From NCBI GenBank assembly GCA_035527515.1, contig DATLAJ010000034.1, forward strand, positions 1 through 32,683: 32,683 nucleotides of DNA. The letters are read 5' to 3'. Positions 3,562-32,683 of this stretch are shown piece after piece; the stretch's first letter is position 1; every line of letters starts with the position of its first letter. The notes beneath the pieces are model-generated. The model saw only the letters and a list, made by a program, of their open reading frames with translations, had not been told where the DNA came from and ran no database searches. The position numbers were made by a program, and so were the translations under genes. Source of the DNA: a bacterium. Its GTDB lineage: Bacteria > B130-G9.

Positions 3562-3616
3562 GGTCTTCGTCTCCCTTCGGTGTTGCCCCACTGAGATCAT
3601 AGTTTAGCCCGACCCA

Positions 3617-8282: not shown

Positions 8283-10562
8283 TCATTCGAACTGACCATG
8301 ATCTTGATGTCTAGTCGTCGCTATGCGAAACTGGCACGTCGCCAGGTTCGACATATACGTCGTCGTGCCCTGCTCAAAGAGCGCGGCATAAGCATAATAG
8401 ACGCCCGAGGGCAGCCCAGCATCGAGCGGCGCCTCAAGCAGCGTGAAATCCTCCAGGTCGAAATGGCCCGGTATCCAGCCCGAGTAGTATGGGCTGTAAT
8501 CCATCGACAGGCTCGGGAGGTAGAGCAGCGTCTTGTCCGGCAGCTCAATCGCCGCGGCGAGGTCGGCGAAGAGCTCGCCTCCGGGGTTTGAGAGAGCGAG
8601 CGACAGCCGAAGCGTATCGCCAACATAATACTTGGCCTGCGACGTCGAAAGCGAGACAAAAGGCGTGAGCGGGTCAAGGAACGAGAAGACCGCGGCGCCC
8701 GCGGCGTAGATCGTGTTGCCCGTCTCGCCGAAATCGACCACAAGCGCTGTCGTGTTCGAGCACTCAAGCCCCTCCGTCGAGAGTGAGGTCCACGTCTTGC
8801 TGCCATCTCTGGTGTGGTGAACGCCTTTGTAGCCTGATATGTAAAAATCATCGCTATCGCTCGGGTTGATCGCCATGTCATAGACCGAATCGACCGGCGT
8901 CTCGAGTCGGTCCCAGCTATCTCCAGAATCGCTGGACCTGTATAGCCCCCCGCCGTACCACCCATCGCTCGCGTAAACCGCAGAGGAATCAACCGGGTCG
9001 AACTCAACGAAGAATGGGTTAATGCCCAGTCCTTCGACGAGATGGAAGCTATCTCCGTAGTCTGTTGTTAAATAGAGACCCTCCGAAGTGCAGACGAATA
9101 CCCGATTGGGGTCTCTCGGGTCGATCGCGACAACGTAGGTAACGCAGCCGCTCCCTCCGACGAAATTCGAGAGTCGCTGCCAAGTGAAGCCCAGGTCCTC
9201 CGTCCTGTAAATCGCATCACTCAGCATCGCGACGTATATCCTGCGAGAGTCGCTGGGGTCAACCGCGATGTCCTCACACCAATCCCATTGCCCGCCCGGC
9301 CAATACGAGAAGAACTCCCAATCCTGCCCTGAATTGTGGGACACCTGAATGATGTCCTCAAAGGGGCTGCCCTCATAAAGCACGCTCTTATCGTTAGGGT
9401 CTTGAGCGACACAGATCGAGTATATGTCCCTGAAGTAGTCGTTGATCTCCCAGCTTGAACCCGCATCGGTGCTTCTGGCTAAGATGTATGGGCCGGCCAC
9501 AACAAGTGTCTTCATTGCGTCATCACAAGTTAAAAGTTGAGAGGCCATTTGGGCGATCAACCCATTCGACGAGAACTCGGCGCTGTTACAGCCATCCGTT
9601 GAGCGGCAAATGCCTGAGTCCGAGCCGACTAGGACCTCGTTGCTATCAAACGGCGAGACGTCGATGAAGCTTCCGCCATAGTCACTGCACATCAAGGTCC
9701 AACTATCGCCGCCGTCCTCCGAATAATATAGCCCCGTAGTACCATAACAGGCATACATTCGTGAGGGATCATCCCTGCAAAAGCAGATGTCATTCACCAG
9801 AACTCCGACATCAGTCCAGGTAAATCGCTCCTGATCCCAGCGGTAGAGGCCCCAGTCGCTGATGAAGACATCGGAGGAGTCGATCGGCGAGACATATATC
9901 CCTTGTGGCCAGAAATACAAGAGGTCTAAACCATAAGGCAGGTCTTCCCAGGTAATCCCGCCGTCCACGCTTCGCTTTGGTGCACTATAGACACACCCAA
10001 TCCAAATCGTCTGCGGGTCATCAGGATCGATGCAGACCGCGGAAGGTTGTGGGCCAGTAAAGACCATCTCCCACGTCGCGCCTCCGTCCAAGGTCTGAAA
10101 AAGCCGGCCAAGTTCGAACGTGTCATATACGGCGACGCACAGGTGGCCAGCATCGTTCGGATCGAGGGCTATCGCCGAGAGGTCTTGATTGCCCCAGGGC
10201 GCGCTGATGCCCTCCCAGGTTATTCCGCCGTCCACGGATTTGAAGAGCGACTCATCATCGAAACAGCAGATATGGGCAAAAACCAGCCCTCCTACGCTCC
10301 TGCTTGCGCAGAAGCAAGCGGAAGAAACATCATCGGCGGGGAGATCAGGGACGCTCCTCTCCCAGGTTACGCCGCTATCCTGCGACCTGAAGAACCCGTT
10401 CTCGCCGCCTGCATAGCAGAGTCCTGGGGTCTGGCAGTCGTATTGGACTCTTGTGATATAGCCACCATAAGGCCCGTTGGTCTCCCAGAAGCCCTCGCCA
10501 GCAATGCCCAGCTGGCAAAGACAGAAGATAACCACCGTCAGGCTCAAAATACACCGTTTCAT
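8283..10562 (-). CDS. secreted Asp-box (BNR/sortilin-like) beta-propeller protein, copy 2
   Basis: A 759-residue exported protein with a signal peptide (MKRCILSLTVVIFCLCQLG, cut near AGEG). About twelve Asp-box turns of the form S-x-D-x-G-x-T/S-W are spread evenly, for example RSQDSGVTW, KSVDGGITW, RSSDSGDSW and HTRDGSKTW. The interleaved phrases AIDPRDPNRVFVCT and VEFDPVDSSAVYA are typical of VPS10/sortilin-type ten-bladed or doubled propellers. From about residue 640 a beta module begins (STSQAKYYVGDTLRLSLA), also present in the 10604 and 1078 proteins. The RBS context GGAGGCAAGA-ATG matches that of the paralogue. It lies 41 bases downstream of that paralogue on the same strand, so they are probably one transcript. 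Ligand unknown; sialidase-type catalytic residues are not evident. Confidence 0.85.
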   Translation of the reverse strand: MKRCILSLTVVIFCLCQLGIAGEGFWETNGPYGGYITRVQYDCQTPGLCYAGGENGFFRSQDSGVTWERSVPDLPADDVSSACFCASRSVGGLVFAHICCFDDESLFKSVDGGITWEGISAPWGNQDLSAIALDPNDAGHLCVAVYDTFELGRLFQTLDGGATWEMVFTGPQPSAVCIDPDDPQTIWIGCVYSAPKRSVDGGITWEDLPYGLDLLYFWPQGIYVSPIDSSDVFISDWGLYRWDQERFTWTDVGVLVNDICFCRDDPSRMYACYGTTGLYYSEDGGDSWTLMCSDYGGSFIDVSPFDSNEVLVGSDSGICRSTDGCNSAEFSSNGLIAQMASQLLTCDDAMKTLVVAGPYILARSTDAGSSWEINDYFRDIYSICVAQDPNDKSVLYEGSPFEDIIQVSHNSGQDWEFFSYWPGGQWDWCEDIAVDPSDSRRIYVAMLSDAIYRTEDLGFTWQRLSNFVGGSGCVTYVVAIDPRDPNRVFVCTSEGLYLTTDYGDSFHLVEGLGINPFFVEFDPVDSSAVYASDGWYGGGLYRSSDSGDSWDRLETPVDSVYDMAINPSDSDDFYISGYKGVHHTRDGSKTWTSLSTEGLECSNTTALVVDFGETGNTIYAAGAAVFSFLDPLTPFVSLSTSQAKYYVGDTLRLSLALSNPGGELFADLAAAIELPDKTLLYLPSLSMDYSPYYSGWIPGHFDLEDFTLLEAPLDAGLPSGVYYAYAALFEQGTTTYMSNLATCQFRIATTRHQDHGQFE

Positions 10563-10603: not shown

Positions 10604-12877
10604 TTATCTTGTGCCCTTGATGAAGCGGAAGTGCTCAACCGCCAGGTTCGACATATACGTCGTCGTGCCCTGCTCAAAGAGCGCGGCATAAGCATAATAG
10701 ATGCCCGAGGGCAGCCCAGCATCGAGCGGCGCCTCGAGCAGCGTGTAGTCCTTCAGGTCGAAATGTCCCGGTATCCAGCCTGAGTAGTATGGGCTGTAAT
10801 CCATCCACAGGCTCGGAAGATAGACCAGCGTCTTGTCCGGCAGCTCAATCGCCGCGGCCAGATCGGCGAACAGCTCGCCGCCCGGATTCGAGAGATCGAG
10901 CGCCAGCCGAAGCGTATCGCCAACATAATACTTGGCCTGCGACGTCGAAAGCGAGACAAAAGGCGTGAGCGGGTCAAGGAACGAGAAGACCGCGGCGCCC
11001 GCGGCGTAGATCGTGTTTCCCGCCTCGCCAAAATCGACCACAATCGCCTCTATGTTCGTGCACTCAAGGCCCTCCGTCGAGAGCGAGGTCCACGTGTTTC
11101 CTCCGTCCCTAGTGTGGTGAACGCCCATGTAGCCCGATATGTAGAAGTCGTTGCTATCGCTTGGGTTGATCGCCATGTCATAGACCGAATCGACCGGCGT
11201 GTCGAGCCTCTCCCAGCTATCTCCAGAATCGCTGGACCTGTAAAGCCCTCCGCTGCTCGAATCGCCAGCATAAACGCTCCTCGGGTCGTTGGGATCGAAC
11301 TCGACGAACGCCGGCTCCGCATGAACGCTGCTGGTCCTCTCGAAGCTCTGCCCATCATCGGTCGAGCGATATAGCCCATTCGACGTGCAGACGAAGATGC
11401 GCCTCGGTGCGCTCGGGTCGATCGCCACGGAATAGATGTAGCCGTATTCGCTAGTCGATGCGAAAACAGGCAGCTCATCCCAGCTTAAGCCGGCGTCTCT
11501 CGTCCGGTAGATAGATGTGTTTACACCGAGGAACATCGTGTCCGAATCGGTCGGGTCAACCGTGATGGCGTCAACCCAACCTACGTTGAACGGGAAGTGA
11601 CAGAACACGTCCCAGTCCTGGCCAGAGTTATCAGAGAAGGAGATTATCTCGTCCGAAGAGTCGGTCGCGTAAAGCCTTTTGAGGTCACTTGGGTCTTGCG
11701 CTAGATAAAGGCTATAGTTGTCCATGAACGAATGGTCAAGTTCCCAGGTCCCGCCCGAATCGGCGCTCCTGGCGAGAAGATGGTAGCCCGCGCATACCAA
11801 AACGCTCTTCGCAGCGTCGCAGGCGACGAGGTATTCAGCTTCCTGAGCAACAAGGCCGTCGCACGAATAATTCACGTTCTGGCAGCCGTCCGTTGAGCGC
11901 CAGATGGCCGTCAGGTCTCCGACCAGGACCTCGCCAACGGTCGCAGGGCACGCATCGATGAACACGCCGCCCACTCCAACGTTTCGCACTTGCCAAGATG
12001 CGCCTCCGTCATCGGAGGAGTAAAGGCACGAGTAGTCGCAGGCGAACATCTTGCTGGGGTCGCCCGGCCAGAAACAGATGTCGGTTACATCAATGCCCGC
12101 TGCTTGCCACGCATAGCTCGACTCATCCCATCGATACAGGTAGTCGTACCCAGAACAGAAGAACACGGCGGACGAATCGCCCGGCGAGACGTACATCCCG
12201 CGCGGATAAATGCAGTCGCCCGGCAACAGCCCCTGGCCCAGGTCCTCCCAGCTAGCTCCGCCGTCGGTCGTGCGCTTGGGGAAACCGTAATTACAGCCGA
12301 TCCAGATCGTCTCCGAATCGCTTGGGTCTATCGCGATCGCATAGACCTCTACACCCTCGTAGATCCTGTTCCAAGATGTGCCGCGGCTCTTGGACTCCCA
12401 GACCTCGCCCCCGTTGTAAGTGCCAGTCCAGACAGATAGCGCTACGCACACGTGGTTCGCATCGTTCGGATCGCAGGCAACATCATCTACGTAACCGTCC
12501 CAAGGCGTCATGAGAGGCGCCCACGTCTTGCCGCCATCCTGCGACCTGAAGAATGGCCATGACTCCTCGAAGTACCCTATTCTGGCAAAGACCAGCCCTG
12601 AAAGAGCTTTACTGACGCAAAAGCGACTGCAAAAGACACCCGAGTCGCTCGCGGTGAGGTTGGGGATGCTGCGCCGCCAGGTTACGCCGCCGTCTTCCGA
12701 CCGGAAGAACCCGTTCTCACCGCCGGCATAGCAAAGCCCTGGGGTCTGGCAGTCGTATTGAACTCGATTGATATAGCCGCCATAAGGGCCGTTAGTCTCC
12801 CAGAAGCCCTCGCCAGCAAAGCCCAGTCCGTAAACGCAAAAGATAATCGCCGTCAGGGTCAAAATGCGCCGTTTCAT
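10604..12877 (-). CDS. secreted Asp-box (BNR/sortilin-like) beta-propeller protein, copy 1
   Basis: A 757-residue paralogue of the 8283 protein and first of the pair. It starts at an ATG with AAGGAGG six bases upstream. The signal peptide is MKRRILTLTAIIFCVYGLG. About twelve Asp boxes include RSEDGGVTW, RTTDGGASW, RTRDAGLSW and HTRDGGNTW. In both copies the sixth is degenerate at the same place (RSTDGC). The first 60 residues and the last 200 are nearly identical to the other copy, while the middle blades differ strongly. The terminal module (about 640-750, GDTLRLALDLSNPGGELFADL) is shared. Such propellers bind proteins or glycans in the envelope or outside; no catalytic site is evident. Tandem repeats lie in its leader region. 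Confidence 0.86.
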   Translation of the reverse strand: MKRRILTLTAIIFCVYGLGFAGEGFWETNGPYGGYINRVQYDCQTPGLCYAGGENGFFRSEDGGVTWRRSIPNLTASDSGVFCSRFCVSKALSGLVFARIGYFEESWPFFRSQDGGKTWAPLMTPWDGYVDDVACDPNDANHVCVALSVWTGTYNGGEVWESKSRGTSWNRIYEGVEVYAIAIDPSDSETIWIGCNYGFPKRTTDGGASWEDLGQGLLPGDCIYPRGMYVSPGDSSAVFFCSGYDYLYRWDESSYAWQAAGIDVTDICFWPGDPSKMFACDYSCLYSSDDGGASWQVRNVGVGGVFIDACPATVGEVLVGDLTAIWRSTDGCQNVNYSCDGLVAQEAEYLVACDAAKSVLVCAGYHLLARSADSGGTWELDHSFMDNYSLYLAQDPSDLKRLYATDSSDEIISFSDNSGQDWDVFCHFPFNVGWVDAITVDPTDSDTMFLGVNTSIYRTRDAGLSWDELPVFASTSEYGYIYSVAIDPSAPRRIFVCTSNGLYRSTDDGQSFERTSSVHAEPAFVEFDPNDPRSVYAGDSSSGGLYRSSDSGDSWERLDTPVDSVYDMAINPSDSNDFYISGYMGVHHTRDGGNTWTSLSTEGLECTNIEAIVVDFGEAGNTIYAAGAAVFSFLDPLTPFVSLSTSQAKYYVGDTLRLALDLSNPGGELFADLAAAIELPDKTLVYLPSLWMDYSPYYSGWIPGHFDLKDYTLLEAPLDAGLPSGIYYAYAALFEQGTTTYMSNLAVEHFRFIKGTR

Positions 12878-19407: not shown

Positions 19408-21039
19408 TCACTTAGGCGTTTGAACCTCATAAATAGCTGGCTCGCAGGCGTAGTCGAGGGTCCCGGGCTTACACAGGGCCGCGTAGAGCCTCCAGCCAAT
19501 GGCAGAGGCCGGTATGTCAGTCAGATAGAACGGGCCGTGCCAATACCCTCTAAAAAGGTGCAATCCCTCCGCAAGGGGGCGGATGCCGGGCTGCCAAGCG
19601 CCGTCGGAGAATGTGTAGAGCTCACCTTCAGGCGATACTGCCGCAAGGTATGCGTCCACTTCCGCGTCCGAATACCGCGAGGCGCCGCAAGAAAGCAAGA
19701 CAGAGTAACAACCACCTACCGGCTCAACGTCCATGACCAAACGAGGCGCGATGCGGTAATGGAAGCCCATATCAACTGTCCCTGTGTCGGGCGCGAAATC
19801 GGTTCGCGTGGTGTAGAACTGCATACCCGCTTCTTCCACAGACACACCGCCAGCGTCGATGCACGGGCTGTCCTTTCCCTGCCCGGCGGCCGTGCTGCTC
19901 AGGAAATACCGCAGGTGCTCGTCCGTATTCCCTGGTAAAAACGTGAAGAGGGGGTTTTCATCAATGTTACCGCGGCCCTCATGGCCCCCCTGGACGCAGG
20001 AGTATGCCGCGCCCCAGTCGGTCATATTGTCCTCGCCCCAGAGAATCGACCTCCCGGTGCCAATGTAGCCCCACCACTCGTTTGTGTCTTCCAGCCGGTC
20101 CTGGATCAGCGTCGTGTTCTCCACGGAGGAGCTGCCTCCCCAGACGCCAATGGCACCGCCATAGTGGGACGGGTTCTTGATAAACAGGCAGTTGCGGACG
20201 GTGTAGGCCCAGTAACCTGCGGTGGAACGCCCCGTGGTCGAGCTCGCGCCGATGATACCGAACCCCTCGATATAGGGAGTCCAAGCCCCCACGCCGCCGG
20301 AGTTCCCCTCGAATATGCAGTCAGCGACGACCGCCTCGCCCGGCATTCTGGGATTCAGATCTAGCCAAGATAAGCATGGCGAGAAGTCGGACATGTTGCC
20401 CCGAAAAGTGGAATCGGTCACTACTAGGTGAGGGCTCCTGGACGGCCCGTCCACGACCATCCTGATCCCGGCAGAGCTCCGTACGGCGAGATTATAGGAG
20501 AAATCGCACATCACGAACCGGGCATAAGAGCTTGCACCGCCGTAGTGGCAAGAGCCAAGGTACGAGCCAGCTGTCTTATAGAATACGCAGCCCATCGCGA
20601 TCACCTCGCTGCCGGTCCCCGCGTCGATCCCCCTGCTGCCATAGTAGGGAGAGATGGGAGAGATGTATATGTTGGACAACACCAACTTGGCGCCATCGTC
20701 CACCCAAAAGGTGGTCTCCACATTAGAGCTGAACTGGGGGATCTGGTACCATTTCGAGGTGTCCCGGATGCCGCAAAGGTAGACGGTTTTCTCAATCTCA
20801 ATCGGGAAGGTCTCAAAGTGAGAGTAGTAGACACCAGGCTCAAGATATATCACCGTTAGGTCGGCCTCTTGATCACGAGCAAACTGGAGCGCGTCGGTCA
20901 GCGACGGGAATGCGTCAGGTATAGAGCCGCTAGGCGAGACGTAAAGCTCAAGAGGTGCCGCGCTGGCGGTCCCTATAAGTCCGCTGGCTCCAAGAAGCCA
21001 GATGATGCAGAAAGCCATGAGTAGAGCAGTTCTTGTCAT
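19408..21039 (-). CDS. secreted right-handed beta-helix protein
   Basis: A 543-residue exported protein. GGAGG lies five bases before the ATG, and the signal peptide MTRTALLMAFCIIWLLGAS is cleaved near ASA (about 27). Residues 30-360 fold as a pectin-lyase-like beta-helix, with a DALQFARDQ helix cap, VIYLEPGVYYSH and turns such as VADCIFEGNSGG and VRNCLFIKNPSHYGGAIG. SPCIDAGG (391-398) and TDFAPDTGTVDMGFHY close it just as in the second half of the 1078 protein. Residues 431-543 resemble the module seen in the other secreted proteins (VDAYLAAVSPEGELY, YAALCKPGTLDY). It diverges from the giant C25 gene across a 379-base intergenic region. Probably a cell-surface or secreted binding protein; no catalytic residues recognised. 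Confidence 0.83.
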   Translation of the reverse strand: MTRTALLMAFCIIWLLGASGLIGTASAAPLELYVSPSGSIPDAFPSLTDALQFARDQEADLTVIYLEPGVYYSHFETFPIEIEKTVYLCGIRDTSKWYQIPQFSSNVETTFWVDDGAKLVLSNIYISPISPYYGSRGIDAGTGSEVIAMGCVFYKTAGSYLGSCHYGGASSYARFVMCDFSYNLAVRSSAGIRMVVDGPSRSPHLVVTDSTFRGNMSDFSPCLSWLDLNPRMPGEAVVADCIFEGNSGGVGAWTPYIEGFGIIGASSTTGRSTAGYWAYTVRNCLFIKNPSHYGGAIGVWGGSSSVENTTLIQDRLEDTNEWWGYIGTGRSILWGEDNMTDWGAAYSCVQGGHEGRGNIDENPLFTFLPGNTDEHLRYFLSSTAAGQGKDSPCIDAGGVSVEEAGMQFYTTRTDFAPDTGTVDMGFHYRIAPRLVMDVEPVGGCYSVLLSCGASRYSDAEVDAYLAAVSPEGELYTFSDGAWQPGIRPLAEGLHLFRGYWHGPFYLTDIPASAIGWRLYAALCKPGTLDYACEPAIYEVQTPK

Positions 21040-21418: not shown

Positions 21419-24400
21419 ATGCCTGCACTTCGGATGCGTTGGATCATTGTGGTGCTGTGGATGCTGGGCACAATGGCCCTGGCGCCACAAGCTTTCGCAG
21501 AAAGCATAAACATTGTCCTTGATTTCCCCGTTGATCAGTTATCTATAACCCCTAAGGACGATTACGACCAGATAAGGCTCCGCGGGTGTTATATCGCCTC
21601 GGATGTGGGCGCACCGGCGCTGCCTCAAAAGAGCGTCTATGTGTCCATCCCGTTTGACAAGAGCGTCGATCATGTTGAGGTATGCGCCGTCTCAAGACTT
21701 GTTCTTGATGGGCAATACACCGTATATCCTATGCAGCCTCCCGTCCCGACGGACAGTGGCGGCGCTGCGGGATTCGTGGCCCCAGACCCGTCGATCTACA
21801 GCTCTGACGCACCGTATCCGGCAAACGCTGTTGAGCAGACGAAGTCGGGCTCCCTTGCGGGCTACAAGATCGTAGGTCTTTTAGTTACACCGTTCGAGTA
21901 CAAACCGGTCTCACAGACGCTCACATTCTTCACATCAGTATCGCTAAGGCTGGACCTCGCGCCGGCCCCGCCTCAGGCGCTTGCCGTGACGAGGCGAAGT
22001 GATGTTCTCGAGAGGTCAAGTCGAGAGAGGATTTCAAAGCTAGTTGTCAACAAGGGCTCCATCAGCCCGCCAAGACTTTCCCCCAGCGTCTTGGGAACGT
22101 TCGACACGGTTGACTGCGTGATCATCACGGGGAGTTCCTACACGTCCCAGATGGAGCCGCTGGCGGACTGGATGATCAAGAAGGGCTACAGGACGGAGAT
22201 TCATACGGTCTCAGCGATCAGCAGCTCCTACGGCGGGACGGACACACAGGAGAAGATCAGGAACTTCCTCAAGGATTACTACAGCAACAAGGGCCTGGGA
22301 TGGGTGATACTTGGCGGCGACACAAGCGTTGTGCCGGCGAGGGCGGCCTACGCCTTTGACGTGGAAGGCGACGGTTACACCTACGATGACTATCTTTATT
22401 GCGATTACTACTATGCTGACCTGGACGGCACGTGGAACGACGACGGCGACTCGCTTTGGGGCGAGGTCAACGCTGACAACATAGACATGTATGCTGACCT
22501 TCTGGTCGGCAGGTTGCCGTTTGATACGACCAGCGAGGCGGAGGTAGTTGTCGAGAAAACGCTGGTCTATGAGGGTGTTGGCTCAACGCAGATGCCTACC
22601 GACTATCAGAAGAAGCTGCTGATGTTCGCCTGCGAGCTCGATGGAGCGACCTCTGGCGGGGACTGTAAGGACGAGCTGGAGAACTACGTGGGCATCCCAG
22701 GCGACTACACGATCACGAGGCTTTACGACCGCGACGGCACATCCGGCAAGACTAACATCGTCAACGCCATGAACTCCGGCTACAACCTGATCAACAACGT
22801 GGGTCATGCTAACTACTCGGTGATGAGCGCGAAATACACAGGGACCCGTGAATACCTTTACCGAGACGACATGTCCGGGCTTGCCAACGGGCCTCGTTAC
22901 TCAGTTTTATATACGATCGGCTGTTGGGCGGCAGCGATAGACTACGACTGCATGGGCGAGCGGTTCGTTCTCTCTCCAAGCGGCGGCGGCGTCGCGTTCA
23001 TCGGGAACAGCCGGTATGGATGGTTCAGCTCTGGTTATCCCGGTTACGGGCCTTCCGACGCGTTCGACCAGGAGTTCTACTCCGCGATTTTTGACAGCGG
23101 GACTTTCGAGCTAGGCGCTGCGCTTTCAGACTCGAAGCAGGTTTTTGCAAGCTACGCAAAGGGCAGCTATAGCTCGAGCAAGTATTACCGCTGGGTCCTT
23201 TACGAATTGAACCTTTTGGGATCGCCGACAACGCCCGTCTGGACAGATACGCCATCGTCCATGAGCGCAAGCTACGACAGCACGCTAACGGTGGGGCAGA
23301 CAGAGTTTGATGTTCACGTTGAGAGCAGCGGGCCGGTTCAGTCCGCGCTAGTATGTCTTTACAAGGAGGACGAGGTCTTTGAGACGGCCGAGACCGATTC
23401 GAGCGGCTTGGCCCACGTGACGCTCTCTCCGCCGCCGACATCAACGGGGACGATGTTCGTAACAGTCACCAAGCACAATTACCTGCCCGAAAGAGGCAGC
23501 GCCGAGGTTCAGGACGGCAGTAGCTCCGGGCCTGAACTGAGCGACGGGTCGGTCTCGCCAGAATATGGGCAGTCAACCGATACCTTTACGTATTCTGTGC
23601 ACTATTATCATGCAGATTCGGAGCCACCGGCGACCGCGGACGTCTATATCGACGGCTCTCCGCAAACGATGACGTTGGCCTCCGGCCAGGCGGCGGACGG
23701 CGACTACGAATACGAGGCATCGTCGCTTTCTGCTGGCGATCATTCGTTCTACTTCTACTTTGAAGACGGAAACGGCAAGAGCGACAGGTTGCCCGCCTCA
23801 GGAACTTCTGATGGGCCGTTCGTTGACGACACGAAACCCTCCTCGAGCTGCTCAAGTCCGAGCTACTCGACCTCGCAGCCAGCGTCGATCACGTTCACGT
23901 CATCCGACGGCGAAGGATGCGGCATCTACGAGACCAAGCTCTATTACAGGTTTGATGGCGGCAGCTACAGCTACTCCGGAGAGTCGGAGTCGGGCACATC
24001 TGGCTCGTTCTCCTTCTCATTCCCCGATGGACAGGGGACCTATGACTTCTACACTATCGCCATTGACAACGCCGGCAACGCCGAGGACCCGCCGGGCTCC
24101 GCCGACGACACGACTATCTACGACTCGCAAGCGCCCGTCTCATCCTGTTCGTCACCCACCTATGGCACGTCGCCGATAGCCGTAACCTACACCGCATCGG
24201 ATGGCGGAAGCGGCCTGGCCAACACGAAGCTCTACTACAGCTATAGCGGAGGCAGCTTCACGTTCTCCGGGCACCAGGCTAGCGCCAGTTCTGGCTCGTT
24301 CTCCTTCGTCCCTCCCGATGGCGAAGGAACCTACTCGTTCTACACGATAGCCTACGACAACGCTGGCAACGAGGAGGGCGCGCCGGGCTCTGCGGACGAC

Positions 24401-27400
24401 ACCACTATATACGATGGAACAAAGCCCTCGTCTGCCGCTTCCTCGCCAACGTACGCCACGTCGCTGCCCATAACCGTCTCCTTCACCGCATCCGACACCG
24501 GCTCGGGCATCGGCTCGACGGCGCTTTTCTACAGCCACGATTCTGGCAGCTATTCGTATTCTGGCCAGACGAAGAGCGGGACGTCGGGCTCGTTCTCATT
24601 CTCGGCAACCGAGGGCGAGGGCACGTACAGGTTCTACACGCTTGCGACCGACAACGCCGGCAACGAGGAGGATGCGCCGGGCTCTGCGGACGACACGACC
24701 ATCTACGACTCTACCAGACCCGAATCATCTTGCTCCTCGCCAGAGTATGCCTACTCAAGTCCGATCACCATCACGTTCACGGCGTCCGATTCGCTCAGCG
24801 GCGTCTCAACAACCAAGCTCTACTACCGCAAAGACGGTGGAGATTACTCGTATTCTGACCTCGAGGAGAGCGGGACCTCGGGGTCGTTCTCGTTCTCGCC
24901 GCCTGACGGGGATGGCACGTTCGACTTCTACACGCTTGCGACCGACAACGCTGGCAACGAGGAGGACGCGCCAAATGCGCCCGACTCATCGACCGAGTAC
25001 AGAGAGACGGACAACACCAGGCCTGAGTCGTATTGCGAGGCGCCGGAGTATGCGACCTCGATCCCAATTGATGTGGAGGCTTTCGCGTCGGACGATGAAA
25101 GCGGCGTTGCGCAGACGAGACTCTATTACAGCTTCAACGGTGGGGAGTATGAGGATTCTGGCGTAACGTGGTATGGGGACAGCTTCTGCTTCCTTCCTCC
25201 GCCTCTGCACGAGGTCTTCGTTTCTCTGGACGGCACACCGGACGCTACGGGGACGATAGACGACCCGAAGAGCCTCGAGAGCGTGGTAACGGATGCTGAG
25301 CTCGCGGCCGGAACCATAGTGTGGCTGCGCGCGGGTGAGTATTCAGGGGCTTTATCACAGTCGTCGGCTCAGGATGGCACGCCCGATCATCCGGTCATCG
25401 TTATGCCTTTCTGCGGCGAGCGAGCTACGCTTCTGGATGAGGTCTCCCTGCGAGGAGATTCCACATACTGGATAGGCGTTGAGCTCACCAGCTCCGGCAC
25501 ATCCGGCGGAATCGACATATACGACGGCGACGACGTTCGCCTCGTGAACTGCATCATCCACGACCCTCCTAACGGGTATAACGGCATTGGTGGCTGGAGG
25601 GTTGGTTCCGGCCACATATTTTATGGGAACTTGATCTGGGGGATAGCACCCAATCACGAGGACCCGCACGGGCACGCCATCTATACACAGAACGATTCCC
25701 CTAATTACGGGCTGAAGACCATCACCAACAACATATTGTTCAACAACAACAAGTTCTCGTTGCACGCCTACTGCGAGGGTGGGACTGAATTGAGCGGCTT
25801 CAGAGTCACCAACAACATATCGTTCGGCAACAGTAGATACTTCCTGCTCGGAGGCGGGGGGAACATCACGCTCCGCGATAATGTCGTCTCATCCAACTAC
25901 TTCTATGAGCCTAAGACATATCCTTTCATGCCAGGGTGGTATGGGCCGACGGACACGATGACAATCACGGACAATTATGTAGCTTCCGGCGGCAGCCCAG
26001 CCTGGTTCAGACGACACGAATATGGCTCCATAGTGAGAGGCAATACTTTCATCTCGTCCGGGACTTACCGGCTGTTTTTCGACGAATATCAGGACGAGTC
26101 GCCCGAATACAGCACGTTCGAGTGGGATGAGAATACCTATTACGTTGGTGCCACGGATGATTTTAGAGTCCTTTACTGCCGCAGCGATGGGAATACATCT
26201 TACAGCCTCGAAGAATGGCGTAGTCTGACAGGATGGGATACCAACAGCCAGATAGTTGAGGCACAGAAGCCGTCCCAGAACAAGACCGTTGTCCTATCGA
26301 ACAGATACAAGATCAAGCGGGCTCACATCGCGATCTACAACTGGGAGGCGTCCGACAGTGTTGACGTTGACGTCTCCTCGATTCTGAGTGCCGGCGACTA
26401 TTTCCGGCTAGTGGACGTTGAGGATTACTTCGGGGAGCCAGTCTTAAAGGGCTTTTACGATGGCGAACCGCTCTCGGTCCCGATGGCAGAGGAGTTCAAA
26501 TGCTTCGTGCTCTCTGCGTCATCCTTCACCCCACCCGAGGGCGAGGGCACGTACGCCTTCTACACGATCGCCACGGACAAGGCCGGCAATGTCGAGCTCC
26601 CTCCGGATGAGCCCGATGCGGTTACTGTCTATGACGAGACGGCCCCGGTCTCTGGCTGCTCGTGTGATTCGGACGTCAACCACAGCCCCATCTCGATCTC
26701 TTTCTCATCTCAGGACGAGACAAGCAGCGTGGCAAACACAAAGCTCTACTACAAATTCAACAGCGGCAGCTGGACCGATACCGGTCTGGAGGAGACAGGC
26801 ACGTCAGGGGCCTTTGAGTTCACGTTCTCGCACGGCGAGGGGACATATTACTTCTACACACTGTCCACGGATGCGGCAGGCAATGACGAGGCGACGAAGG
26901 AGGCTCCGGACGCATCTTGTGTCTATGACACAACCAAGCCAACCTCGGCTTGCTCATGCGGCCAATTCGCCAGCTCACTCCCCATCGTCATCCAGTTCGA
27001 GGCGCATGACGGCGGCAGTGGAATGGCATCAACCAAGCTCTTTTACAGTTTTGACGGAGGAGATGCCACCGACTCGGGCCTCGAGACAGATGGCACGGCC
27101 GGCAGCTTTGAGTTCAACGCCCCAGACGGGGAGGGCACGTTCAACTTCTACACCATCGCAGTTGACGCCGCCTCAAATGAGGAGACGCCTCCGCAGAGCG
27201 CCGACTGCAATGCCATCTACGACGCAACGTTGCCCAGCTCCTCATGTTCGTCGCCTGACTACTCCAACGGCGATCAGATAGCGGTCAGTTTCACCGCCTC
27301 GGACACACTAAGCGGCATCTCATTCTGCGACCTTTATTACAGGTTCGGGGATGGCGAATGGACGTCGAGCGGGCTTCGCGAGTATAGCACCTCGGGGAGC

Positions 27401-30400
27401 TTCAACTTTGAGCCGGCCGAGGGCGACGGAACCTACCAGTTCTACACGATCGCAACGGATAGAGCTGGGAACGCGGAGGGGACGAAGTCCGCCGAGACGA
27501 CGACGGCTCTTGATACGCAGGACCCGAGCTCAAGCTGTAGCTGCCCCAGCATTACCAAAGCGAGCTCCGTGGAGGTCGCCTTCTGCGCGAGCGACGAGTC
27601 GAGCGGGCTTGCTCAGACGAGACTCTATTATCGGTATGCAGGGGGCGAGTGGGTGGACGCGGACGAGGCAGGCAGCGACGAGGCGGGAACATTCGTCTTC
27701 TCGTTCGGCGACGGCGATGGGATATATGAGTTCTACACAATCGCAACGGACATCGCTGGCAACACCGAGTCCGTGCCCGAAGAGCCCGATGCGACGGTGC
27801 TCTCTGACAGGTCTGCGCCAGCGTCCGAGTGCAGCTCGCCAGAGTCTGCCGGCCAGGGATTCGACGTGAACTTCTCCTCCGACGACGGCGAGGGATCGGG
27901 GGTTGTCTCAATTGACCTCTGGTTCAGATTCTCTTATGACCAGGGACAGACGTGGCACCCGGACTGGACAGCGAGCGGGACCTCGTCATCGGAGCCCGCC
28001 GGCGCCTTCTCCTATCAGCCCGAATTGGGCGAGGGGATATACGAGTTCTACACGATCGCAACGGACGATGCTGGGAACATCGAGGAGGCCTCGCAGACCG
28101 CCGACTGCACCACACATTATGTCACGGAGAAGCCTACATCGAGCGCCTCGTCGCCTGAATACGCGAACAGCGACACCATACCCGTCTCGTTCGAGGCGCG
28201 TGATTCGAGCGGCATCAAGGAGGTTCAGCTCTATTATCGCTATGCGCAGCAGGACGGCTCGGATTGGACTGACTACACTGACAGCGGTTACAGAGCCTAC
28301 ACTCAGGAGGGGACCTTTGACTTCGTCGCGGAGAGCTTCTACGGCGAGGGCATATATCAGTTCTACACAATAAGCGTTGACGCCGCAGACAACGTCGAGG
28401 ACCCGCCGGAGCAGGCCGACTGCCAAACCATCTACGATGCAACGTTACCGAAATCGTATCTATTCTCGCCGGATTACGCGTCGGCCGCGTCGATCAGTTC
28501 GGTCTTTACAACCGACGAGGACCTGTCTGGCATTGACAAGGTCGAGCTTTGGTTCCGCTACTCCGATGATAACGGCGGGACGTTTGAACCGGACTGGGGC
28601 TCAAGCGGCGTCTTCTCCGAGGCCACGGGCGGGTCTCTCATGTTCGGCGCTGAGGATGGGGACGGACTCTATGAGTTGATGACACTCGCAGCGGACAACG
28701 CTGGCAACCAGGAGGATAAGGGCCAGGCAGCAGACCAGACCGTCATCTTGGACACCATCGCGCCGGCCGCGACCGTATCGTGCATGGAATACGCAAGTGA
28801 GCTCCCGTTGCGCCTCGAGTTCACGGCAACGGACGGCACGATCGGTTCGGGCGTGGCATCCGTTCTCTTCTGGTATCGCTTCGAGGAGGGAGATTGGACG
28901 CCAACAGGTCTCGAGACCGAGGGGACTTTTGGCACCGTGTCGTTCTCGCCCAGCGAGGGCAGCGGCACTTACCAATTCTTCGCCATATCGAAGGACTCGG
29001 CCGGCAACGCCGAACCGATCTATTATGAGCCAGAAGCCGAGCTGGTTTTCGACGACCAGATGCCGGCATCATTCGCATTCTGCTCCAACTTCAGCACATC
29101 GTCCGTGATAGAGGTCGGCTACGAGGCCACAGGCCGAGAGAGCGGCATTGCGAGCGTGTCGCTGTTCTACCGGTTCAGTTCGGACGGAGGCTCCAGCTGG
29201 GCACCGGATTGGACGGATTCTGGCCAGAGTCGCTACACACCGTTCGGGAGCTTTGACTTCACAGCTGACCAAGGTGAGGGTAGATACGAGTTCTACACGA
29301 TTGCTGAGAATAACGCCGGCAGCGTCGAGCCTGAGCCAAGCAGTGCGGACGCCTGGTGCATGAACGATCACACTCCTGCATCCTATCAACTCTCCTCGCC
29401 GGAACTCTCAAACAGCTCGCCCATCAACGTAGATTTCGAGGTCGATGACGGTCAGGCCGGCAGCGGCCTTCGCTCCATCGAGCTATATTACCGCTTTGAT
29501 GGCGGAGATTGGCGGGCGTCAGGCCTCGATTCAAGCCAGACGGCGGGAACGTTCGCCTTCACGCCTGAGCAGGGAGACGGAGTGTTCGAGTTCTCCGCGC
29601 TCGTCATCGATAAGGCTGGAAACTCCACGGCGGGTTCGTTCGAGGTGAAGACCAGCACGGAATACGACACTGCCGCACCCTCTTCAACACTCGCAGGCCC
29701 AACTACCGTCAATCAAGGGCCGCTTCAACTGCATTATGAGGTCTTGGAGACCGATGGCCTTCTAGAAGTTTCGCTGTTTTATAGGTTCAGCCAGAGCTGT
29801 GGAGAGAGCTGGGACGTCCCGTGGACCGATTCGGGCCTGTCAGGCGCCGACGCTGAGGGTGATTTTACATTTGAAACGGAGCAAGGTGAGGGGTGGTATC
29901 AGTTTAAGTCGATCGCAGAGGACGAAGCCGGCAACGTTGAGCAAAAAGAGGCTGCTGACACTCAAACTGTTCTCGATTCAGCCCAGCCGGTCTCCTCGCT
30001 CGAGGGGCCTGAGTGCGCCTCAGGCTCGACCATCCTAATCAGCTTCGTGGCCTCCGACCCGGGCTGCGGCTCCGGCATCGTTGCAGTCCACCTGTTCTTC
30101 AGCTCTGCGGTCTCTGACTGGGAGGAGGCGGACGTGGGAGCCACGGGCACCGAGGGCGTCATCCAGTTCGAGCCGCCTGACGGTGAGGGGTGGTATCAGT
30201 TCTACTCCCAGGCTGAAGACGCCGCCGGAAATTTGGAATCCACCAGCGGAGCGCAGATCGAGGTTACGTTCGACACAACCCCGCCAGAATCGAGCTGTCA
30301 GGCAGAGCCCTATCCGTCGCACTCACCGGTCGAGGTCGGAATGCAGGCGGCAGACGCCACAACCGAGCCGGTCGCGATCGCGCTTTACTACCGGTTCAGA

Positions 30401-32683
30401 CTCCCAGGCAGCAGTTGGCAGCCCAACTGGACCGACTCAGCGCAGCGGGTTGACGGCGATTCTGGGACGCTGCAATTCGATACACCACGCGGCGAGGGGA
30501 TATACGAGTTGTGCAGCATAGGCCGAGACCGCTGCGGCAACACCGAGCAGATCGATACGCCACGAGCAGTGCAGAGCATCTTCGACATGACGCGTCCGGT
30601 ATCGACGCTTAGCGGGGGCTCCGTGGCGAGTTCAGGCACTCTCGAGCTGAGCTTCACCTCTTCTGATGCACTGAGCGGACTGAGCTCCGCTAAGCTGCTT
30701 TACGGCTTTGGAGACGAGGACCTCGAGCCAACTGGCCTTACTACAACCACAACCGAGGGCATATTCGCATTCACATTCGACGACTCTGACCGGCAGGGAA
30801 CGTATAGGTTCGTGTGCGTTGGAACTGACCGCGCAGGAAACCAGGAGCAACCTACTACTGACAACACAGTCTCGGTTCAGTTCGATCTCGATGCTCCAAC
30901 TTCTAGAGCAGTTGCTCCGAGGTTTGCGAACCAGCTGCCTATCCAGATAACATGCTCCGCCACAGACGGGACTATCGGGACTGGCGTCGTGAAGGTCGAG
31001 CTCTACTACCGCTTCGGAGAGCAGGACTGGGAGTTCTCGAATCTGTCGCAGGAATGCAGCACTCGTGCGACGTTCACGTTCGACTCCGAGCACGGAAACG
31101 GCACATACGAGTTCTTCAGCATCGCGATCGATGAGGCCGGCAATAGCGAGCCGATGAAGACTGAGGCCGATTCTCAGACGCTGATTGATAACAAGCGTCC
31201 AGATTCTGAGGCGTCTTGCCAACCCTGTCATCCCGAGTCGCCAATCGAGATATCTTATGTGGCCACGACAGGCACATGCCAGCTCCAAAGGGTAGCGCTG
31301 TGGTATCGCTATTTCGACAGCGCAAACTGGACATCGTGGGCGGATTCAGGGGCTTCGGATGGTGGCACGAAGGAAAGCATCTCATTCTCGCCGCCGCTTG
31401 GGGACGGGCGTTACGAGTTCTATACGCTGGCTGAGGACGAGTGCGGCAACATGGAATTCGGGCCTGGCATCGCCGACTGCACCACCGTGTTTGACACAAC
31501 AGCTCCCGTATGCCTCCTCTCGGTCGCGCCGTTCTGCAACCAAGCTGCGGTGCGCGTCGATTACCAGTGCGACGACGGTCAGCTGGGGTCCGGGCCTGGG
31601 CCCATAGATTTTTGGCTCAGGATGCAGGACGAAGACTGGGAGCTTCAGTCCGCCGCTAAGGGATATGGCGCAGAGGGCTACGTTGTCCTGAACGTCGAGC
31701 CTCAGGAGGGGCATTACGACCTTACAGCCGTCTCGACTGACATCGCCGGCAACACGAGCGGTTTCACGGGCGAGACCAAGGCATCGTTCATACTTGACCT
31801 GCTGTCACCGACGTCGATGAGCACTTGCCCACCCTTTGTAAGAACGGCCGAGGTTACGGTCGATATCCGCTCATCCGACAATCTCTCGGGCATAGAATCG
31901 CAGCAGCTGTTCATGAGGCGCCCGGGCGAGGCTTGGGCTGCGGCCGGCGCCCCAACTCAGGCAACCCACGCCTCAATCACGCTCACGCTTAGCGGGGGGC
32001 AGGGCAGTTATGAGTTTCGAGCGAGGGCGATTGACCGGGCAGGCAACAGCGAGTCGATGTCCGACCAGCTGGAATGCTCCACGGTCTATGATGCAACGCT
32101 GCCAGAGGCAAGTTGCTCATCGGAGCGCTACACGCGAACCACGACAGGCGAGATAGACTTCGAGGCATCAGACGAGCACTCCGGGGTGCGTAAGGTTACG
32201 CTTTGGGCGGCGTTCGAGGGAGCTCCGTTGGCCGCGGTCGATATCATCAATGGGCAATCCTCTGGCTCTTTTGACTATGCCTTCTCGCAGGGCGAGGGCA
32301 CATACCACTTCGCCGTTCAGGCACAGGACGCGGCGGGCAATTGCGAGAGCGCACCAACTGTCCATGAGGCAAGCACTACCCTCGACAGAACTGCGCCGCA
32401 GACAAACTGTAACACACCATCTGTTACAAAAAGCTCGCCGATCAGCATAACATACAACGCGACTGATTCTTTGTCTGGCATTGAACAGGTAACCCTATAC
32501 TATCGACTGAACGGCGGCTCGTGGAGTAAGTCCAGTGAGACGAGCACGTCTGCGGGCGGCACCATGTCCTTCTCACCGGCCAGTGGAGACGGTCAATATC
32601 GCTTCTGCATCGTGGGCGAGGACCGGGCAGGCAACAAAACAGAAGTTGGCAGCGGAGGCATCGACGAGACCATCTTCGACACC
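21419..32683 (+). CDS. giant secreted C25 (gingipain-like) peptidase with Ig-like repeat array, 5' part
   Basis: Translated codon by codon, the frame is open for 3,755 codons and has no stop by the window end, so the protein is longer still. AGGAGG lies upstream of the ATG. The signal peptide (MRWIIVVLWMLGTMALA, cut after AFA) leads into a propeptide (about 25-230), then a C25 cysteine peptidase domain (about 232-605). That domain has VDCVIITGSSYTSQMEPLAD, WVILGGDTSVVP, His463 in NNVGHANYS and Cys502 in YTIGCWAAAID, the expected catalytic pair. Two beta-sandwich linkers follow (about 615-705 and 707-803), then about 25 Ig-like units of 97-105 residues from residue 806. A beta-helix module of 438 residues interrupts unit 5. 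Related gingipains work outside the cell. No sorting tail is reached, so the anchoring is unknown. Confidence 0.92.
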   Translation, partial: MPALRMRWIIVVLWMLGTMALAPQAFAESINIVLDFPVDQLSITPKDDYDQIRLRGCYIASDVGAPALPQKSVYVSIPFDKSVDHVEVCAVSRLVLDGQYTVYPMQPPVPTDSGGAAGFVAPDPSIYSSDAPYPANAVEQTKSGSLAGYKIVGLLVTPFEYKPVSQTLTFFTSVSLRLDLAPAPPQALAVTRRSDVLERSSRERISKLVVNKGSISPPRLSPSVLGTFDTVDCVIITGSSYTSQMEPLADWMIKKGYRTEIHTVSAISSSYGGTDTQEKIRNFLKDYYSNKGLGWVILGGDTSVVPARAAYAFDVEGDGYTYDDYLYCDYYYADLDGTWNDDGDSLWGEVNADNIDMYADLLVGRLPFDTTSEAEVVVEKTLVYEGVGSTQMPTDYQKKLLMFACELDGATSGGDCKDELENYVGIPGDYTITRLYDRDGTSGKTNIVNAMNSGYNLINNVGHANYSVMSAKYTGTREYLYRDDMSGLANGPRYSVLYTIGCWAAAIDYDCMGERFVLSPSGGGVAFIGNSRYGWFSSGYPGYGPSDAFDQEFYSAIFDSGTFELGAALSDSKQVFASYAKGSYSSSKYYRWVLYELNLLGSPTTPVWTDTPSSMSASYDSTLTVGQTEFDVHVESSGPVQSALVCLYKEDEVFETAETDSSGLAHVTLSPPPTSTGTMFVTVTKHNYLPERGSAEVQDGSSSGPELSDGSVSPEYGQSTDTFTYSVHYYHADSEPPATADVYIDGSPQTMTLASGQAADGDYEYEASSLSAGDHSFYFYFEDGNGKSDRLPASGTSDGPFVDDTKPSSSCSSPSYSTSQPASITFTSSDGEGCGIYETKLYYRFDGGSYSYSGESESGTSGSFSFSFPDGQGTYDFYTIAIDNAGNAEDPPGSADDTTIYDSQAPVSSCSSPTYGTSPIAVTYTASDGGSGLANTKLYYSYSGGSFTFSGHQASASSGSFSFVPPDGEGTYSFYTIAYDNAGNEEGAPGSADDTTIYDGTKPSSAASSPTYATSLPITVSFTASDTGSGIGSTALFYSHDSGSYSYSGQTKSGTSGSFSFSATEGEGTYRFYTLATDNAGNEEDAPGSADDTTIYDSTRPESSCSSPEYAYSSPITITFTASDSLSGVSTTKLYYRKDGGDYSYSDLEESGTSGSFSFSPPDGDGTFDFYTLATDNAGNEEDAPNAPDSSTEYRETDNTRPESYCEAPEYATSIPIDVEAFASDDESGVAQTRLYYSFNGGEYEDSGVTWYGDSFCFLPPPLHEVFVSLDGTPDATGTIDDPKSLESVVTDAELAAGTIVWLRAGEYSGALSQSSAQDGTPDHPVIVMPFCGERATLLDEVSLRGDSTYWIGVELTSSGTSGGIDIYDGDDVRLVNCIIHDPPNGYNGIGGWRVGSGHIFYGNLIWGIAPNHEDPHGHAIYTQNDSPNYGLKTITNNILFNNNKFSLHAYCEGGTELSGFRVTNNISFGNSRYFLLGGGGNITLRDNVVSSNYFYEPKTYPFMPGWYGPTDTMTITDNYVASGGSPAWFRRHEYGSIVRGNTFISSGTYRLFFDEYQDESPEYSTFEWDENTYYVGATDDFRVLYCRSDGNTSYSLEEWRSLTGWDTNSQIVEAQKPSQNKTVVLSNRYKIKRAHIAIYNWEASDSVDVDVSSILSAGDYFRLVDVEDYFGEPVLKGFYDGEPLSVPMAEEFKCFVLSASSFTPPEGEGTYAFYTIATDKAGNVELPPDEPDAVTVYDETAPVSGCSCDSDVNHSPISISFSSQDETSSVANTKLYYKFNSGSWTDTGLEETGTSGAFEFTFSHGEGTYYFYTLSTDAAGNDEATKEAPDASCVYDTTKPTSACSCGQFASSLPIVIQFEAHDGGSGMASTKLFYSFDGGDATDSGLETDGTAGSFEFNAPDGEGTFNFYTIAVDAASNEETPPQSADCNAIYDATLPSSSCSSPDYSNGDQIAVSFTASDTLSGISFCDLYYRFGDGEWTSSGLREYSTSGSFNFEPAEGDGTYQFYTIATDRAGNAEGTKSAETTTALDTQDPSSSCSCPSITKASSVEVAFCASDESSGLAQTRLYYRYAGGEWVDADEAGSDEAGTFVFSFGDGDGIYEFYTIATDIAGNTESVPEEPDATVLSDRSAPASECSSPESAGQGFDVNFSSDDGEGSGVVSIDLWFRFSYDQGQTWHPDWTASGTSSSEPAGAFSYQPELGEGIYEFYTIATDDAGNIEEASQTADCTTHYVTEKPTSSASSPEYANSDTIPVSFEARDSSGIKEVQLYYRYAQQDGSDWTDYTDSGYRAYTQEGTFDFVAESFYGEGIYQFYTISVDAADNVEDPPEQADCQTIYDATLPKSYLFSPDYASAASISSVFTTDEDLSGIDKVELWFRYSDDNGGTFEPDWGSSGVFSEATGGSLMFGAEDGDGLYELMTLAADNAGNQEDKGQAADQTVILDTIAPAATVSCMEYASELPLRLEFTATDGTIGSGVASVLFWYRFEEGDWTPTGLETEGTFGTVSFSPSEGSGTYQFFAISKDSAGNAEPIYYEPEAELVFDDQMPASFAFCSNFSTSSVIEVGYEATGRESGIASVSLFYRFSSDGGSSWAPDWTDSGQSRYTPFGSFDFTADQGEGRYEFYTIAENNAGSVEPEPSSADAWCMNDHTPASYQLSSPELSNSSPINVDFEVDDGQAGSGLRSIELYYRFDGGDWRASGLDSSQTAGTFAFTPEQGDGVFEFSALVIDKAGNSTAGSFEVKTSTEYDTAAPSSTLAGPTTVNQGPLQLHYEVLETDGLLEVSLFYRFSQSCGESWDVPWTDSGLSGADAEGDFTFETEQGEGWYQFKSIAEDEAGNVEQKEAADTQTVLDSAQPVSSLEGPECASGSTILISFVASDPGCGSGIVAVHLFFSSAVSDWEEADVGATGTEGVIQFEPPDGEGWYQFYSQAEDAAGNLESTSGAQIEVTFDTTPPESSCQAEPYPSHSPVEVGMQAADATTEPVAIALYYRFRLPGSSWQPNWTDSAQRVDGDSGTLQFDTPRGEGIYELCSIGRDRCGNTEQIDTPRAVQSIFDMTRPVSTLSGGSVASSGTLELSFTSSDALSGLSSAKLLYGFGDEDLEPTGLTTTTTEGIFAFTFDDSDRQGTYRFVCVGTDRAGNQEQPTTDNTVSVQFDLDAPTSRAVAPRFANQLPIQITCSATDGTIGTGVVKVELYYRFGEQDWEFSNLSQECSTRATFTFDSEHGNGTYEFFSIAIDEAGNSEPMKTEADSQTLIDNKRPDSEASCQPCHPESPIEISYVATTGTCQLQRVALWYRYFDSANWTSWADSGASDGGTKESISFSPPLGDGRYEFYTLAEDECGNMEFGPGIADCTTVFDTTAPVCLLSVAPFCNQAAVRVDYQCDDGQLGSGPGPIDFWLRMQDEDWELQSAAKGYGAEGYVVLNVEPQEGHYDLTAVSTDIAGNTSGFTGETKASFILDLLSPTSMSTCPPFVRTAEVTVDIRSSDNLSGIESQQLFMRRPGEAWAAAGAPTQATHASITLTLSGGQGSYEFRARAIDRAGNSESMSDQLECSTVYDATLPEASCSSERYTRTTTGEIDFEASDEHSGVRKVTLWAAFEGAPLAAVDIINGQSSGSFDYAFSQGEGTYHFAVQAQDAAGNCESAPTVHEASTTLDRTAPQTNCNTPSVTKSSPISITYNATDSLSGIEQVTLYYRLNGGSWSKSSETSTSAGGTMSFSPASGDGQYRFCIVGEDRAGNKTEVGSGGIDETIFDT
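23834..32683 (+). repeat. tandem array of about 25 Ig-like units in the giant protein
   Basis: Each unit has the order: P-x-S-S-x-C-S-S-P-x-Y, a hydrophobic strand (PITVSFTASD), SG-hydrophobic, LYYR-x-F-x-G-G-x-W/Y, SGTSGSFSF, GEGTYxFYTIATDNAGN, then an Asp-rich link ending in IYD. Units begin near 23834, 24128, 24422, 24716, 25019, 26639 and then about every 300 bases. Units 1-8 are closely alike. Units 10-25 drift, with longer strand loops (for example 27815-28444 and 29060-29370) and lost cysteines, but keep AGN and YY/WYR. It resembles bacterial Ig-like/fibronectin-like surface repeats; the exact Pfam family cannot be settled by eye. Confidence 0.85.
25205..26518 (+). other. beta-helix module inserted within Ig unit 5
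   Basis: About 438 residues (1263-1700) of a right-handed beta-helix protein in the same frame: a VFVSLDG start, IVWLRAGEYSG, HGHAIYTQNDS, ITNNILFNNN, ISFGNS and DNVVSSNYF, then a tail with AHIAIYNWEASDSVDVDVSS. This is a recognisable complete module, usually a separate secreted protein. It sits between SFCFLPP and SSFTPPEGEGTY, which are the two halves of one Ig strand-turn. Confidence 0.8.

Follow-up and report, generated by a model that had tools for sequence, protein, structure and literature searches.

A predicted β-helix domain nested within one Ig-like unit of a giant gingipain-like protein

The fifth Ig-like unit of a giant gingipain-like protein is discontinuous in sequence. Its two halves, which together account for one complete unit, are separated by a 438-residue insert that is predicted to be an independently folding β-helix domain. 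The window analysed here is the entire contig C34 (32,683 bases) of a draft genome of 3.47 Mb in 183 contigs. The likely reading is that unit 5, as a split Ig-like display domain, presents a β-helix that binds or cleaves glycans.

Architecture of the giant protein

The gene for the giant protein is cut off at its 3′ end by the contig end, and the features of the portion present are collected in Table 1. Both junctions of the insert are crossed without a stop in this single open frame, as the initial annotation had stated. Between the signal peptide and the Ig array, Pfam detects a C25 propeptide, the C25 domain and a C-terminal C25-type Ig domain. On sequence grounds, the giant protein is a member of peptidase C25 (gingipain-like); its C25 domain retains both catalytic residues and is probably active as a protease. 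The signal peptide suggests export and a surface location. The Ig array comprises 24 complete units of approximately 98 residues and one unit in two pieces, as detected with an HMM built from intact Ig units.

Table 1. Features of the giant-protein gene in the window.
Feature	Position	Strand	Details
Giant-protein ORF	21419..32683	+	3755 codons/aa to contig end, no stop reached
N-terminal signal peptide (approximate)	21419..21499	+	by eye: MPALRMRWIIVVLWMLGTMALAPQAFA
Peptidase C25 domain	22118..23236	+	Pfam PF01364, E 6e-61
Catalytic His463; Cys502	22805-22807; 22922-22924	+	aligned to gingipain R H211/C244
Ig-like units 1-4	23831..25000	+	unit HMM
Split Ig unit 5, N-terminal part	25016..25183	+	unit-HMM 1-56; pLDDT mostly 90-96
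Inserted predicted right-handed β-helix and C-terminal all-β segment, 438 aa	25205..26518	+	Pfam, fold and profile searches
Split Ig unit 5, C-terminal part	26522..26635	+	unit-HMM 60-97; pLDDT 84-98
20 further Ig-like units, off contig end	26639..32683	+	unit HMM

Elsewhere in the window, two minus-strand genes (19408-21039, which is divergent from the protease gene, and 1078-3600) apparently encode secreted proteins that look β-helix-like by eye and have no Pfam match above cut-off. Two adjacent minus-strand genes of Vps10/BNR type (8283-10562 and 10604-12877; 759 and 757 residues) are possibly a tandem pair.

Fold and relatives of the inserted domain

The insert spans residues 1263–1700. 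It matches the Pfam family PF13229 (Beta_helix) with an E-value of 6.6e-9, above the family cut-off, and this generic family is the only one to which Pfam assigns the insert. Foldseek comparison with the PDB, in which no match to the insert fell below an E-value of 0.001, returned PL6 chondroitinase B (7o78; probability 0.98, E 5e-3), PL6 alginate lyase 7dmk and phage tailspikes, including that of Dettilon. A profile search aligned 60 N-terminal residues with the PL6 structure 6qps (E 0.003). From these sequence and model comparisons, the insert is assigned a right-handed β-helix (pectate-lyase-like) fold. The Pfam family model for PL6 gave no match to the insert at E ≤ 0.1, and NCBIfam gave none above cut-off, the nearest being a sub-threshold pectate-lyase match to 92 N-terminal residues (E 0.004). 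No catalytic residues of known lyase families were identified in the insert. A split domain needs the ends of its insert to lie close together, whereas the ends of a plain solenoid lie far apart. The all-β C-terminal segment of the helix domain may bring the two ends of the insert together.

A related β-helix protein occurs in a genome of another phylum (G107), where it is represented by two fragments on different contigs. One fragment opens with a signal peptide and the other runs to a stop codon, their ends match those of the insert, and both are presumed to derive from one gene. This relative shares the all-β C-terminal segment and, judged from its sequence, looks like a secreted, free-standing protein. 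Its fragments adjoin apparent glycosyltransferase and exopolysaccharide genes, the functions of which were read by eye. The predicted fold and this gene neighbourhood point to a glycan as the likeliest ligand of the helix, and the ligand-binding role that the initial annotation gave to the insert is, on this basis, an inference.

It is possible, although the odds are somewhat against it, that the insert, instead of being a binder, acts as a polysaccharide lyase or hydrolase, in which case a protease and a glycanase would share one stalk with the same split-domain architecture. The PL6-type fold, the N-terminal profile matches and the situation of the G107 relative among polysaccharide genes are consistent with enzymatic activity, as are the His/Asp-containing blocks NCIIHD, NGIGGW.VGSGH and DPHGH.IY.QN, which are invariant in the three sequences from the family. 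However, the G107 relative lacks these blocks wherever its fragments permit comparison, no Pfam lyase family was assigned and the NCBIfam pectate-lyase match stayed below threshold. Furthermore, divergence is faster in the helix than in the protease: between the genus of the window and its sister genus, the C25 part is 61% identical and the helix only 41–45% identical, which makes the helix the least conserved large part of the giant protein.

The split Ig-like unit

The N-terminal half of unit 5 (residues 1200–1255) matches positions 1–56 of the unit HMM, and the C-terminal half (residues 1702–1739) matches positions 60–97, in a model of length 98. As the two matches are complementary, with approximately 3 of the 98 positions missing, the halves correspond to exactly one Ig unit, and unit 5 is classed from sequence and modelling as a split Ig-like domain. 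An SF..PP-like remnant of strand E flanks the insert on both sides in the window, such that the insert boundary is good only to approximately five residues. The initial annotation held that the unit resumes exactly where the strand ought to continue; this is correct for the complementarity of the halves, but the residues at the junctions themselves are not clean.

AlphaFold2 modelling, also among the checks initially suggested, used an alignment of helix relatives joined with 43 intact Ig units. The block-mean pLDDT was 90–96 for model residues 1–50 and 84–98 for model residues 501–540, which represent the Ig halves, and ranged from approximately 28 to 79 in the weakly to moderately modelled insert. 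An earlier model from three sequences had a mean pLDDT of 45. As intact units were among the alignment rows, the high values for the halves derive partly from the alignment, and the model demonstrates that the halves are compatible with one Ig domain rather than proving it.

Conservation in related genomes

The metagenome-assembled genome (MAG) AUK292 (G002), from the Auka vents, represents a sister genus in the same family and contains both junctions at homologous positions in diverged sequence. The left junction lies on contig C83 (...EYQDSGVSNFGATLAPPP, with LGIMYASPDG... following the junction) and the right junction on contig C78 (...CFILSASSFTPPDGEGTYEFYT). The right junction is nearly letter-identical between the genera (LSASSFTPP[E/D]GEGTY). 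Comparison of the gene neighbourhood on the sister contig with ten genes of the window gave no match at an E-value of 1e-3, and a search for the helix in genome contigs, viral contigs, phages and plasmids recovered only C83 and C78. An origin in Ca. Tharpellota, which the Auka-vent provenance of the sister MAG had brought to mind, was discarded, as nothing ties the family to that clade.

Host unit 5 is 82% identical between genera (74 of 90 positions), whereas every other Ig unit is 38–65% identical. This bears on the proposal that two independently truncated Ig units flank the helix, left by an end-to-end fusion and subsequent erosion, instead of one discontinuous Ig domain. Such a history would suit the SF..PP strand-E remnant present on either side of the insert in the window, which resembles the outcome of a duplication. 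The proposal is nevertheless improbable: the halves complement each other almost completely and keep the hallmark residues of the unit, no other Ig sequence is as well conserved between the genera, and a single model folds both halves with high confidence. The same observations, together with the junctions conserved in a second genus, uphold the initial description of a β-helix nested inside one Ig unit over an end-to-end arrangement.

A chimeric assembly, as might arise inside a repeat-rich gene of a draft genome, is excluded to near certainty by the recurrence of both junctions, in diverged form, in a MAG of a different genus, and the insert does not stand out from the remainder of the gene in codon usage. 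The orthologous sequences on C83 and C78 substantiate the junctions as real. Codon usage likewise gave no indication of a foreign origin of the insert (−1.102, compared with −1.122 to −0.987 for other windows of the gene).

The family sample comprised four genomes, the sole representatives of the phylum in the genome set searched. Unit 5 of the window is the only split unit lying inside a contig, alongside 526 full units in approximately 50 Ig-array ORFs from the four genomes; the unit count is approximate, as the stretches fetched include a few that overlap. At 1 split unit among ~527, nesting is rarer than the end-to-end arrangement within this family, as had been anticipated. In C25 relatives from the family that lack the helix (G000:C38 and G001:C273), both of the two Ig units are intact. 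For G001, the other species in the genus of the window, the available sequence of a possible ortholog is limited to its first 32 residues, at a contig end. The genomes of the family are packed with giant Ig-array ORFs, more than 500 units having been fetched; the longest ORF encodes 6033 residues (G000:C84).

The two helix sequences of G002, on C83 and C78, share 86% DNA identity over 920 bases. Their dN/dS of 0.26 indicates that the helix is under purifying selection. The first 77 bases of C78 are identical to a stretch of C83, an overlap consistent with a branching de Bruijn assembly graph; the assemblers employed included SPAdes, which uses k=77. A search of G002 for further copies of the left flank found none. 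Either the helix was duplicated in tandem within the same Ig socket, or the two sequences are alleles from different strains.

Proposed function

It is proposed that the giant protein is exported via its signal peptide, with its N-terminal C25 protease probably active. Within a long extracellular stalk of Ig beads, one bead would be interrupted, before or within the E strand, by the complete β-helix, which would bud out sideways. The two halves would close into a normal Ig bead, such that the stalk stays continuous. The helix is of the polysaccharide-lyase/tailspike type; its most likely role is to bind or cleave polysaccharide, which would recruit protease and stalk to a surface or matrix made of glycan.

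A more specific reading, which is offered tentatively and is rather unlikely as it stands, is that one Ig bead is dedicated and conserved as the socket of a rapidly diverging helix of enzyme size beside the protease, with a duplication of the helix in the sister-genus socket. If so, split-domain display would occur outside the RTX adhesins with inserts several times the size of their host. With a socket that is conserved and an insert that diverges, the idea of display can be tested.

Comparison with known systems

The giant protein resembles gingipains of peptidase C25 in its propeptide, its C25 domain with His and Cys, its C25-type Ig domain and the presence of extra domains thereafter. The adhesin regions of gingipains are built from end-to-end modules, whereas the giant protein has an array of approximately 25 Ig repeats with a helix nested in one of them. 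The insert shares its predicted fold with PL6 lyases and phage tailspikes and has a similar N-terminal cap, but lies outside PL6 by Pfam and NCBIfam and possesses the all-β C-terminal segment seen in the G107 relative.

In a survey of domain insertions, the median insert was 115 residues and the median host 199 residues, the insert was smaller than its host in 77% of cases, and the insert ends were a median of 14 Å apart (PMC13114784). Against these statistics, a host of approximately 98 residues holding an insert of 438 residues, 4–5 times its size, is unusual, and the ends of the insert would be expected to need bringing together.

Split Ig-like domains with inserted ligand-binding modules have already been described in RTX adhesins, where they project ligand-binding domains off the stalk axis; the inserts include CBM, PA14, peptide-binding and RTX modules (PMC12077191, PMC10865825). 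This precedent was absent from the initial annotation. In the RTX adhesins MpIBP, FrhA and AhLap, a sequence-discontinuous Ig-like stalk bead likewise holds an independent domain. RTX adhesins end in a Ca-binding β-roll and a type I secretion signal, whereas the giant protein starts with a signal peptide, which argues against type I secretion, and a C25 region. The part of the giant protein present, its C terminus lying beyond the contig end, gave no match to an RTX family in Pfam or NCBIfam. Its 438-residue β-helix is also unlike the described inserts. Split Ig domains being known, what is new here is the size of the insert relative to its host and the C25-protease setting. Split Ig display would thereby no longer be confined to RTX adhesins but also occur in a gingipain-like protease, in which a small host carries a fold with ends that are normally distant from each other.
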